Origin: Raphanus sativus
Lineage: Eukaryota; Streptophyta; Magnoliopsida; Brassicales; Brassicaceae
Reading direction: 5' to 3'
Assembly: GCF_000801105.2 (NCBI RefSeq)
Contig: NC_079519.1
Span: forward strand, 28,309,288-28,373,287
DNA: 64,000 nt
A model generated the notes under the pieces. That model worked only from the letters and a program-made list of their open reading frames with translations. It ran no database searches and had not been told where the DNA came from. Below are positions 46,535 to 57,296 of the stretch, one piece after another. The position numbers were made by a program, and so were the translations under genes. How positions within the stretch are numbered: the stretch's first letter is position 1; each line of letters opens with the position of its first letter.

Positions 46535-46932
46535 AAAAAACTAGGGCAATTGTCCATAATAGCATTTTTGAAGTTTTTATCACCAAAATGGCATCAGAAG
46601 GAAAAATTCACAGAAATAGCATTCATTAATGGGTAAAATGTCCATACTAACCTTGTTTTATAATACATGTAACAACTAAAAAAAAGAATCGTCTTCCTCC
46701 TTTCTCAACATTGAGACGCCGCCGGAGAAAAATCACGTTGGCTGAACCATCACCGTCACACTCTAAACTCTCAAGAGATTGAACGTCGGCTTAAAGCTGT
46801 CATCGCCGCCGCCGTCATAGAGCTCTGTCATCGCCGGAGACAAATCTGAACCGATCCAAATTTCCTCTGAATATTCTCAAAGACGCTCTTAGTCTCAGAC
46901 ACGATGACTCCGCACTTCTGTAGCTCGCATTC

Positions 46933-47008
46933 GTCAAGGGTCCAAGAGAAGGCAAAACTCTCGAGTACAAACCTGGATTCACTGTTCGGATCGGCCGAAT
47001 CGTTCGAG
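46933..47008 (+). pseudogene. Captured FHA-domain fragment
   Basis: The plus strand encodes VKGPREGKTLEYKPGFTVRI, then GRIVRG, followed by a GT donor. This is the start of a forkhead-associated domain (GPRxGxxLEYxPG...IGRIVRG), which binds phosphothreonine. Only the first strands are present; the core ends at the splice donor and the next captured sequence is GAPC. Confidence 0.65.
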
Positions 47009-47192
47009 GTATGGTTGTGGATCTCTTCGTATGAGATTTGTTTTAAAGCAAGCACCACCTGTATCTCTATATATATGAGTTGATTAGCTGATTATATGGT
47101 TTATTTGAGCTGATATTTGTATCGGAACTTTTTGTAATGTTATTGATTGGTTGCATGAATTGATTTTACTCTCTGTGTTTGATTTGATGCAG

Positions 47193-47692
47193 ACCTGCAT
47201 GTTTAAGTACGACAGTGTTCATGGTCAGTGGAAACACCATGAAATTAAGGTTAAGGATGAGAAGACTCTTCTCTGTGGTGAGAAGCCTGTCACCGTCTTT
47301 GGCATCAGGTACATCTCTATCAGATGACTATATATTTTTTTTCAGTATGAGTGAATCTGATTTTGAGGATTTCAATCTCATAGGTGATTGTGTTTTGTGA
47401 AGGAACCCTGAGGATATCCCATGGGCTGAAGCTGGAGCTGACTTCGTTGCTGAGTCTACTGGTGTTTTCACAGACAAGGATAAAGCTGCTGCTCACTTGA
47501 AGGTTTGTTTTATCTGCTTTGGATGTTATACACCGTTATATGTTTAGCTTGTTTGGTTCTGGAAGAGATTTAGTAATTAGTGGACACAAATTAAGTTTTT
47601 ATCCCATGTATGTGTTGCGATGTTTAGACTGAATGATTTGGTGATTTGTTTGTTACAGGGTGGTGCCAAAAAGGTTTTCATCTCTGCCCCGA
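47193..47692 (+). pseudogene. GAPC: Captured cytosolic GAPDH (GAPC) fragment
   Basis: Three consecutive GAPDH exons with their introns: 47193-47308 ([20 protein letters not shown], then [12 protein letters not shown]), 47403-47502 ([20 protein letters not shown], then [13 protein letters not shown]) and 47659-47692 (GGAKKVFISAPS). All splice sites are GT-AG and the frame is kept. The catalytic Cys region and the C-terminal half are missing; the sequence departs from GAPDH after ISAPS. The introns show that DNA was captured, not cDNA. In the host, GAPC catalyses NAD-dependent oxidation of glyceraldehyde-3-phosphate in glycolysis. This copy cannot do so. Confidence 0.93.
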
Positions 47693-47838
47693 GCTCGATC
47701 GTACTGTATGAAACTTGTCAACCTTTCATGCTTATGTTAGTTACCACGTCATGGTTCATCTTTCTTTCATTTTCACTACAATCTCTCTCTCTCTCTCTGC
47801 GATTATTAAACAGAGTTTGTGTTTTGGTTTTGTATTAC

Positions 47839-53559: not shown

Positions 53560-55340
53560 AATCCAATTTAATATTTAATTAAAAAAAATTATATTAGAAT
53601 ATCAAGTAATATATTCAGGAAGGGCTTAGTGAAAATTAAATATTTCATTCTTTTTTAAATGTTAGAATGTTAAATAACATGTTTAGACTGAAATTTTAAT
53701 ATTTGATTAAAAATAAAGTTTAAAGAAAGCAAGTAAAATATTTAGGAAGAGCTTCCTGAAAATTTAATATTTAATTAAAAAGAAAATATATTAGGATATC
53801 AAGTAATATATTCAGGAAGAGCTTCCTGGAAGTTTAATATTTAATTTTTAAAAAATGTTAGGATGGTAAATAACATGTTTAGAAAGGCATGCCTGAATAT
53901 TTAATATTTAATTAAAAAATGTTAGGATAAAAGGATGAAATATTTAGGAATGACTTCTTGAAAATTTAATATTTAATTAAAAGGTAATATGTTAGAATAG
54001 CAAGTTAAAATGTATATATTAACAAAATTTGCATATATATCATATTTATACAAAACACATGTTATCTAGGATAGCTTTTGGAACATTCAGGATGGGTTTC
54101 CAGAAAATAAAATGAGCGTGTTTTATTACATAAATCTGTTTTCGAAGAGAATCAAAAAGCGGGTAAGAAATGTTAGACAATTATTGTTCTAGATGGTTAT
54201 TCTGAATTAGAACTTAATCTTCCAGAACAACCAAAACAAAACAACATAATCAAAATCTATAAGAAATTCATTGGCTATAGAAATCTCCAAACAGAGAATC
54301 CAAATTTGAAAAATCTCCAAATAGAGTTCATTGTTTACAAAACACATATTACATATAAGAAATTCATTGGCTATAGAAGTGTTTCTTGAAAATTTAATAT
54401 TTAACTAAAATAAAATGTTAGGATAGCAAGTAAAATATTTATGAAGGAATTGTTGAAAATTTAATATTTAATTAAAAATGAAAAAAAATGTGAGGATAGC
54501 AGGAAAAATACTTAGGAATAGCTTCCTGAAATTTTAATATTTGATTAAAAATAAAGTTTAAGGAAAGCAAGTAAAATATTTAGGAAGGACTTCCTGACAA
54601 TTTAATATTTAATTTAAAAAAATGTATTAGGATATCAAGTAATATATTCAGGAAGGACTTCCTGAAAATTTAATATTTAATTTTTAAAAGAAATGTTAGC
54701 TAGGATGGTAAAGAACATATTTAGAAATGCATGCCTGAATATTTAATATTTAATTAAAAAAATATTAGGATAACAAGATGAAATATTTAGGAATGACTTC
54801 TTGAAAATTTAATATTTAATTAAAAGATAATATGTTAGAATAGCAAGTTAAAATGTATATATTAACAAAAATTGCATATAAATCATATTTAGGATATCAA
54901 ATAATATATTCAGGAATGACTTCCTGAAAATTTAATATTTAATTAAAAAAAATGTTAGGATAGTAAATAACATATTTAGAAAGATGTGCCTGGATATTTG
55001 ATATTTAATTAAAAAGAAAAATGTTAGGATAACAAGATGAAATATTTAGGAATGGCTTCTTGAAAAATTAATATTTAATTAAAATGTAATATGTTAGAAT
55101 GGAAAATTAAAAATTATATATCAACAAAACTTGCATATATATCATTATAGGATATCAAGTAATATATTCAGGAATGGCTTCCTGGAAATTTAATATTTAT
55201 TTAGAAAAAGAAAATGTTAGGATAGTAAATAACATATTTAGGAAGAGCTGCCTGAATATTTAATATTTAAAACGAAAATGTTAGGATATAAAGTAAAATA
55301 TTTAAGAATGATTTCTTAAAAATTTAAAATTTAATTTAAG
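53560..55340. repeat. AT-rich array with TTCAGGAAG..CTTCCTGAA hairpins
   Basis: About twenty imperfect copies of a 60-75-bp unit made of GTTAGGATAGCAAGTAAAAT, ATTTAGGAA..CTTCCTGAAA and TTTAATATTTAATTAAAA. The central part is an inverted repeat able to form a short hairpin. A larger duplication inside it spans about 53690-54010 and 54540-54860. Confidence 0.8.
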
Positions 55341-55815
55341 AATGGTTTCTTTAATTTATAGTTTTATATCTCTATTTACATATTCATTTGTTGTTTGTTT
55401 GCATCTATTGAATGTGTTTAGTAAATGTTGCTTATAATATTGTTAGTTTTTTTGTTGCTTGTGCTTGTGAAACTTTGTAGTGTTTATAAAAAAATTCAGG
55501 AAGGATTTGTGTAGTTTCAGGAAAGCTTTCCAGAAAATTAGATGGTAACAAAATTGAAATTTTTTGCTTGGTGTCTTGTTCTCCTTAAGCATGTTGATAT
55601 CTTTGGTAGGCTCGTGAATTTTCTTATAGCATTGTTAGTCTTGTTGCTTGTCCTTGTGAAAATGTGTAAAGTTTTAAAATTTTTAAAAAGATATGTGTAG
55701 TTTTAGGAAAGCCTTCCAGAAAATAATTATCTAGACAATCTTAAAACAATTCTTGTTCAGGATAGCTATCCTAAATTTGAATAAAGTCTTCCAAAATCGG
55801 AAAAGCAAAAAGTCA
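55136..55815. repeat. Duplicated module D2 inside the MULE
   Basis: Second copy of the module at 51127-51650, with the palindromes GGAAAGCTTTCC (about 55520) and AGGATAGCTATCCT (about 55760) conserved. Confidence 0.75.
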
Positions 55816-56619
55816 AATACAGCATAACACGTAAAACTTAATAATTACTAAGCTAAAGCTTAACTGAACCTTTAGATTGATGTCTATTCAAGTCTTGGAA
55901 ATGATATGCTACAAAAAAGGCTAATCTTTGAGCAAGACCAAATATCCCAAAAGTAAATGTATCCGTAGTTTGCTTGGTACAACTAGATTAATCAGTAATA
56001 ACCTGCATAATTCAAGTTTGCTTGGTACAGCTATCACATTGGTTAAAAAATAAACATTTTCTTAAAGCCACTCAATCAATACAAAACTTAGGGGTCTCCA
56101 ATAATTATTCACTACTTGGTCAAATGACATCCTCTTCAGTTTTAGAAACAACAGCAAGTTGATCATGTTAAACCACCCTGAAAAGTTCACATTTTTTTGG
56201 TTAATATCCCAACTGTAACGAATTTGAGAAGAAGCAACAAAAATAACAAGTGGATAGAGAAACCATACATAGCACCAAAGAGCTCAAGAGTAACCCATGA
56301 CGACTTTGTTCCAAAAGTTTAAACTTTCTCCGCATCATCTATAACGTGGTGAGGCTATATACACTATAAAGACCTTTCTTTTTCTTCACCCACGTCACTA
56401 TTGTTTTTCTAAATCACAAGTCATTTAACTTTTTCAGAAACTGTGGCTTTCAATCAGTCCAACAAATTGAACAGCAATACAATCCACAGTTCCACACAAA
56501 ATATGTGAAATTGTAATACAAATCACACAAAAATATTTGAACTGATTTAGAATCGAGGTTCCACTTACTTGGTCCTTCAGTCAAGTGTAAAGCTTAATCT
56601 CATTCTACTCTGTCACCTC

Positions 56620-56735
56620 AGCTTTAGCCAAAACGTCACCGTCGCTCTTGATATCCATAGCGACTGCAGCATACTCGGGAGTAAGAGACTCGCAATGACC
56701 ACACCACGGATCCATATCGATCGGATTCTTTTTCC
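56620..56735 (-). pseudogene. Captured protein disulfide isomerase fragment
   Basis: The minus strand reads DPWCGHCESLTPEYAAVAMD, then IKSDGDVLAKAEVTE, then a stop. This is the thioredoxin-like active-site region of a PDI (family pattern APWCGHCxxLAPEYxxAA). The CGHC redox pair is kept but the usual Ala before PWCGHC is Asp, and the rest of the domain is absent. It lies about 0.5 kb inside the right end of the MULE. Confidence 0.8.
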
Positions 56736-57296
56736 GTCTCCCTCATTGTCGTTACCAAATACCTTTAAACCAAAATCACAAAAATCCATCAAAATGGATC
56801 ATAGCGTAAATGCTTCACCAAATTGAAAATTGAAAAGTAAATCGATACCATATACCTGATTCAACGAAATTCGAAGTCTATATTAGATAAATGTCAATCA
56901 AAATCAAAAATCCATGGATGGAAGATACCTTTTCGAAACAGAGACGGCGGCGCAGCAGCAAAGCTGAGGAAGATAGACGTGATGAGTGACAGTGAGATGA
57001 TGACGGCGAAAGATGAGCGACGCCGGAGATGATGACGAGAGACGATCGATGCCGGAGATGTGAGAAGTCATCGACAGCGGAGATGTGAGAAGCCGTCGAC
57101 GTTGTGATTTCAAGTTTTATTTTTTAAGGATTATTAATCAAACAAAGAGAGGGGCACTATGGTAAATGATCATATTAATGAAACTTATTTTTGTGACTTT
57201 GTGCCTTGAGTGCTAGTTTTGGAACAAAAACTTGGATTGGTGCTATATTTGTCATTTTCTCAAAAAACTATGTTGAAATAATAACAAATAAATAGT

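Follow-up and report, generated by a model that had tools for sequence, protein, structure and literature searches.

A recently mobile Pack-MULE of radish and the dyad-motif array it shares with the relatives compared

A gene-carrying Mutator-like element and its recent mobility

The window analysed here, a 64-kb stretch of the 433-Mb radish assembly (C9:28309288-28373287), contains a Mutator-like element (MULE) of 10,718 bp at window positions 46544-57261. This element is a recently mobile Pack-MULE that carries pieces from several donor genes and has no visible transposase, and much of its interior is occupied by an array of repeats built around one dyad motif. Exact copies of the 9-mer AAAAAACTA flank the element on both sides; this 9-mer occurs four times on the plus strand and once on the minus strand of the window, and the chance identity of two random 9-mers of the window is 5.5e-5. 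The termini are degenerate inverted repeats whose best local match extends over 89 bp at 64% identity, and the score of this end pair was equalled by 1 of 5000 random window pairs in global alignment and by 2 of 5000 in local alignment. An initial annotation of this DNA had described a perfect 9-bp target duplication and recognisable inverted-repeat ends, and both descriptions hold. The outer features, in window positions, are as follows.

46535..46543, no strand assigned: left target-site duplication (TSD) AAAAAACTA, with an identical copy at the opposite end
46544..46688, plus strand: left end (GGGCAATTGTC...), 82-83% identical to six other members and 97% to the copy on C7, from the end-match search and pairwise comparisons
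57102..57261, minus strand: right end (GAGAAAATGAC..., reading inward), from the genome-wide end-match search
57262..57270, no strand assigned: right TSD AAAAAACTA, with an identical copy at the opposite end

A second full-length copy lies at C7:12600784-12611496 and differs from the C9 element by 25 substitutions over 10,710 aligned bases and by 11 indel columns, corresponding to a Kimura two-parameter distance of 0.0023 (0.23%). The C7 copy is flanked by an exact 9-bp TSD of its own, TTTTATAAA, and homology between the two loci stops at the element ends, indicating that the composite moved as one unit and did so recently. Plant substitution rates are 0.7-1.5e-8 per site per year, which places the separation of the two copies at roughly 0.08-0.17 million years. 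In agreement with the annotated lack of a transposase, no stop-to-stop frame in the element exceeds 103 codons, and tblastn with the transposase of a coding relative on C6 returned no match inside it. At Rfam gathering scores, the sole hit in the window was a snoRNA located outside the element.

The element carries pieces of five genes, FHA, GAPC, ARPC2, an aspartyl protease and PDI. At least four donors (FHA, GAPC, protease and PDI) had been proposed and are retained here, while the piece left as an unknown gene end is now identified as ARPC2. The open frames also agree with the strands assigned earlier, with FHA and GAPC on the plus strand and the protease and PDI on the minus strand.

46880..47009, plus strand: FHA-domain exon fragment, 86% identical to C5:39635669-39635801 (next best 82%), matching PDB 1uht at E 5e-10
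47008..47076, plus strand: 69-bp linker, 91% identical to C6:29858196 and C4:31916660
47079..47694, plus strand: GAPC fragment of three exons with introns, the third exon cut, 85% identical to C5:1307211-1307819 and contiguous over the introns
47692..48369, plus strand: ARPC2 3' fragment with a premature stop, 88% identical to C5:17828562-17829251
51812..52399, minus strand: aspartyl-protease fragment of three exons (approximately 52399-52322, 52204-52136 and 51925-51812), from Pfam TAXi_C at 1.3e-6 and the open frames
56608..56730, minus strand: PDI/thioredoxin-domain fragment with a CGHC active site, from Pfam Thioredoxin at 1.5e-5 and a PDB match at E 4e-12

Within the GAPC piece, 84 residues match A. 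thaliana GAPC1 in PDB at E 2e-48, and the identity of the ARPC2 piece follows from the joined exons of its best-matching parent, which hit Arp2/3 subunit 2 at E 1.2e-8; comparison with this parent also revealed the premature stop. The FHA piece had no hit in the Pfam scan, its PDB match being to 1uht, which we take to be an Arabidopsis FHA domain, and the aspartyl-protease piece gave a weak PDB match (E 0.057). Best-matching parents at the DNA level were located for three of the five pieces (FHA, GAPC and ARPC2), all of them on C5. A GAPC search against a general collection of genome contigs yielded 14 loci, all prokaryotic and thus uninformative here. As the GAPC and ARPC2 matches extend across introns, these pieces were captured as DNA. 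The GAPC piece differs from its best-matching parent at 19 of 252 exon sites and 57 of 351 intron sites, and the ARPC2 piece at 71 of 673 sites. With parents that are 85-88% identical, capture would be far older than the last jump, unless closer parents are absent from the assembly. In the left arm the chain FHA-linker-GAPC-ARPC2 is closely joined, its seams overlapping by 2-3 bp or leaving 2 bp. The linker copy at C6:29858196 sits 1.1 kb inside another left end (C6:29857121), and that at C4:31916660 lies ~5 kb from a right-end match (C4:31921697). We considered a chimeric FHA-GAPC protein and find it unlikely, since the FHA exon ends in phase 1 while the GAPC exon starts in phase 0, and the joined frame reads DLHV and then a stop.

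The surroundings of the element include a 218-codon open frame with a RING-H2 finger at 44874-45527 on the plus strand, which ends ~1 kb before the insertion. Further upstream, TIR and NB-ARC frames on both strands (16800-23608) mark a TNL resistance-gene cluster, between parts of which lies a Copia-type retroelement with one 1384-codon open frame (24247-28398). There is an LRR frame at 28849-30249, and by eye we noted LRR-like frames at 353-988 and 15531-16415 and a second group of Copia-like frames at 10884-15345.

A family of composite elements with shared ends

Genome-wide searches with the two ends returned at least 40 scored matches to the left end and at least 40 to the right end, the window element and its C7 copy included, from 76 and 72 first-pass candidates. 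Other copies of the ends are therefore present, and by these matches the element belongs to a family of composites, as had been surmised. Seven members were compared, namely the window element and those designated C6, C4, L030, L031, L032 and L033. Four of the six others could be bounded, all with exact 9-bp TSDs: C6 (11,851 bp), L031 (7,548 bp), L032 (5,577 bp) and L033 (5,544 bp). The 9-bp duplication, exact at the two element copies and these four relatives, lies within the 8-11 bp given for MULE TSDs in the portion consulted of PMC6446971. As the six bounded elements (the C9 and C7 copies and the four relatives) measure 5.5-11.9 kb, the size of the window element, taken by the initial annotation as exceptional, is the norm among the bounded members. 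A second recent pair is formed by L032 and L033, with 27 differences over 5539 bases. Two pairs of equally scoring left ends lie near one another (C8:11656816 and C8:11672018; C9:12953289 and C9:12983374) and may be local copies.

In the comparisons made, the members share their ends and a dyad-motif array while their arms differ, and several contain pieces of host genes. At E 1e-8, arm matches among the seven members extend over the outermost 130-185 bases at the left end and the outermost 86-157 at the right end, with the C6 right end having just a 34-bp match. Small extra patches are shared between the arms of the window element and L031, of C4 and L032, and of C4 and L033, and the L032-L033 pair is alike overall. 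This comparison was made on the outer parts, with at most four matches listed per side, and took in C4 and L030, for which no right end was found in the stretch examined, by their left arms. The other listed matches between the window element and the six members (first 25 rows each) fall in the array.

A Pfam scan of seven pieces from the relatives' arms, together with PDB searches, identified a NifS-type aminotransferase piece in the C4 left arm (Pfam 6e-16) and a PDI piece in the C6 left arm (Pfam 4e-6, two pieces joined). The L032 left arm contains a Tubby-like piece that falls under the Pfam cut-off (22.6 versus 27 bits) and has no PDB hit, and the L030 left arm a histone H2A-like piece with a PDB match at E 0.0012 over 27 residues and no Pfam hit. 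An ACC-synthase piece in the L031 right arm was not secure (Pfam Aminotran_1_2 0.069), and none of the L031 arm pieces scanned gave a secure host piece.

A dyad motif shared by the repeat types of the array

The central part of the window element is organised as follows.

48370..55800, no strand assigned: dyad-motif array of ~7.4 kb, interrupted by the aspartyl-protease piece
48369-51100, with pieces at 53066-53352 and 54072-54380, no strand assigned: tandem repeats of ~350-bp units
51150-51740 and 53590-55340, no strand assigned: tandem repeats of 66-70-bp units

The different types of unit (~350 bp, 66-70 bp and single units) have one dyad in common, TTYAGGA-N6-TCCWRAA. Between 48300 and 55850, AGGA-N6-TCC has 44 strand-wise matches, whereas 100 shuffles averaged 0.31 and never exceeded 3. 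AGGA-TCC spacings of 3-5 and 7-10 have no matches. Six members together contain 92 half-site pairs with spacings of 0-15, of which 85 are at spacing 6 and the remainder at spacings 1 (four pairs), 4 (two) and 9 (one). The earlier view that the element is so large mainly through tandem repeat growth thus falls short, as the repeats carry one family-marking dyad whose spacer is nearly constant.

A weight matrix built from 28 of the window element's own sites hits the element 86 times, counted strand-wise, and the remaining 53 kb of the window twice; since its training sites came from this element, independent tests are provided by the other members and by the genome. With the strict pattern, 109 sites were found in the seven members and none in ~73 kb of flanks. 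This total counts the nearly identical L032 and L033 separately and includes some C6 sites that belong to a different repeat, close to a DUF1985 frame. Genome-wide, TTYAGGAWNNNNWTCCWGAAAA has 384 matches and its reversed control 1. The 100 listed of these 384 sites, from C1 to part of C3, form 15 clusters by eye and no single sites, and for 12 of the 15 a by-eye comparison places an end match no more than about 10 kb away. Two clusters with the same internal spacing lie 0.5 Mb apart on C3 (C3:6390907-6392315 and C3:6919919-6921327); both are without an end match among the matches listed and possibly represent a diverged subfamily. At least one site was present at all 14 left-end loci examined, out of 38 scored besides the window and C7 elements, several of the 14 being near-duplicates, and at none of four host-gene loci. 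Eight of these 14 loci, some of them alike, had from 16 down to 1 matrix hits within 2.5 kb each. At six right-end loci, four had 1-2 matrix hits in 1.5 kb of flank and two had none, the array usually lying further inward.

The central pairs of the dyad are complementary in 33% of sites, little above chance, which disfavours a hairpin and better suits a protein dimer. Among non-redundant sites, 29 with a flank identity below 60% still have the dyad in common. Information is 0.09-1.45 bits in the four columns that flank the core on each side and averages 0.15-0.20 further out; as the sites were picked by the core pattern, only this fall-off outside the core is informative. The array contains 52 CpG where 138 are expected, a depletion that is compatible with a history of methylation. 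A literature search covering titles, the opening parts of abstracts and passages of text returned no earlier report of the dyad; the motifs of Sasaki et al. 2022, reportedly the nearest paper on VANC diversity, lay outside that comparison.

The array as a putative anti-silencing address

Coding relatives of the element supply candidate proteins. The C6 member has an 828-codon open frame, and a scan of 697 of its residues found MULE (Pfam 3.3e-23), SWIM and DBD domains. It also has a frame with DUF1985 (2.7e-27), after which the DNA can be read as tandem peptide repeats. The DUF1985 region of C6 (element positions ~5680-7550) further contains CTGGAAG-TTCCAG dyads in a repeat of its own, next to the gene or within it. 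The C4 member (L026, C4:21086000-21095999) has a very similar left end and a MULE transposase frame with DBD and SWIM domains; it may be a fused element or a neighbour, or two transposases may serve one type of end.

These features invite comparison with known systems. In the sections consulted of PMC5735166, the VANC proteins of Arabidopsis VANDALs are described as combining DUF1985 and DUF287 with repeat-rich variable regions, and as binding short motifs that are dense in non-coding tandem repeats, where methylation is then lost. Degenerate ends are given as a VANDAL feature in a passage of PMC10398659, and KIU proteins, Ulp1-bearing relatives of VANC, are said in an excerpt of PMC13317346 to act on their own kind. 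Like the VANDAL and KI (Kaonashi) MULEs of Arabidopsis and other eudicots, with their VANC and KIU proteins, the radish family has degenerate ends, a 9-bp TSD and motif-dense non-coding repeats, along with a DUF1985 protein and a SWIM transposase in the coding relative C6. It differs in its motif, a 20-bp dyad rather than YAGTATTAY or AGTTGTMC, and in that DUF287 was not seen in the one C6 DUF1985 frame scanned; an anti-silencing role here would be by analogy. These two motifs, known for VANC21 and VANC6, occur 0-1 times per element in six members and are unenriched, and we accordingly use the name 'VANDAL-like' instead of 'VANDAL'.

With the Pack-MULEs of rice and other plants the window element has in common the 9-bp TSD, MULE ends, no transposase seen and intron-containing DNA copies of several host genes, but its body is mostly dyad array, the bounded members measure 5.5-11.9 kb and the ends are degenerate. 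PAC, a mobile VANDAL-like element and possible Pack-TYPE MULE of A. thaliana Tsu-0, is likewise non-autonomous with a VANDAL-like TSD length and direct repeats that may be VANC6 targets, whereas it is a single copy and the radish elements form a family, have another motif and draw on several donors (PMC12312487, as far as its consulted parts go). Fused Pack-TYPE elements resemble the radish element in gaining new DNA between their ends and in having inner ends deleted or mutated, although the examples in the pages used of PMC8903248 are PIF, Mariner, CACTA and hAT elements and not the radish family.

On this basis, we consider it reasonably probable that the element belongs, as a non-autonomous Pack-MULE, to a VANDAL/Kaonashi-like Mutator family and that its array is a VANC-type anti-silencing target. 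The transposase of an autonomous relative would act on the element ends, and the array would act in cis as the platform on which a dimeric DNA-binding protein docks, the best candidate being the VANC-type DUF1985 protein of the coding relative. This protein would remove DNA methylation in trans, leaving the passenger element still able to move. That the array is bound and demethylated, and by which protein, is our reading from the VANDAL precedent.

Several observations weigh against such a role. The link between the dyad and DUF1985 comes from one bounded element, C6, and DUF1985 was seen in one of the seven members read at length. The interior of C6 contains an older right end, its outer 27 bases gone, ahead of the coding half, which may therefore stem from another element by fusion. 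A radish protein that is 96% identical carries DUF1985 and Ulp1 and not DUF287, and only its residues 1-288 match C6. The C4 and C6 transposases are 24% alike, and in the stretch examined no right end was found for the C4 member. The absence of enrichment for known VANC motifs belongs here as well, as do the 3 of 15 site clusters without an end match among the matches listed, and the L050 locus, with one matrix hit and zero strict sites. AGGA-TCC spacings of 2 (6 matches) and 11 (10 matches) are also above shuffles. Within the young 350-bp units, one dyad has a conservation of 0.944 versus 0.891 for the unit, inside the spread of 16-column windows, and the second, at 0.702, is below the unit, partly through one copy's deletion; in the 70-bp units the right flank is conserved equally with the dyad. 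Selection on the dyad within young units, when tested, found no support.

Two other explanations of the array are each unlikely in our estimation. In one, the protein that binds the array is the transposase or a host activator, and the array functions in excision or transcription instead of anti-silencing. Subterminal motif clusters are bound in such a manner in other DNA transposons, and in all seven members the array begins 1.0-1.8 kb inside the left end; it persists in members that showed no long coding frame, and the C6 and C4 loci encode transposases with the DBD and SWIM domains described above. Against this, the array reaches up to 7.4 kb and, in each of the five bounded members scanned, stops at least 1.5 kb short of the right end, and the two transposases diverge to the extent given above even though C6 and C4 carry the same dyad. 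The VANDAL precedent, to the extent set out in PMC5735166, links arrays of this kind to VANC. In the other, for which we see a similarly low likelihood, the array is a passenger satellite that descends from a common ancestor and expanded through unequal exchange, with a functionless dyad as its most recognisable remnant. The lack of clear extra conservation of the dyad in recent tandem units is what such a satellite would give, and the unit types are related across members; the retention of the dyad at sites with little flank identity and its almost fixed spacer speak against it, as does the fact that ends and array are the parts seen shared between members. That the locus is a segmental duplication or an assembly artefact, as its long and almost identical copies might suggest, is highly improbable, since homology halts at the ends, each copy has its own exact 9-bp duplication and exact duplications are likewise found at four relatives.

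The VANDAL-like reading also includes growth of these elements by fusion. One further feature bears on this.

53540..53569, plus strand: relic of a family end within the array, matching the right end at 26 of 30 bases (E 1.4e-4), at the point where a 350-bp unit breaks off

In the parts drawn upon of PMC8903248, neighbouring elements with compatible ends fuse and their inner ends decay. The end relic and the internal right end of C6 fit this model, and host pieces may have been gained partly through fusion of adjacent elements, the inner ends later decaying.

More tentatively, and as a proposal that may well prove too strong, the family could be modular, keeping only its ends and the dyad array while all else is swapped for host DNA. 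The array would then be a new anti-silencing address, read as a dimer site by a DUF1985 protein of new specificity, and passengers would be mobile by this address alone. If true, this would explain how gene-carrying passengers evade the silencing that their gene copies should provoke. The dyad offers a defined and testable binding site, along with a candidate for the protein that reads it and an element of recent mobility in a crop genome, and the family shows, at the level of individual seams, how a chain of gene pieces is assembled.

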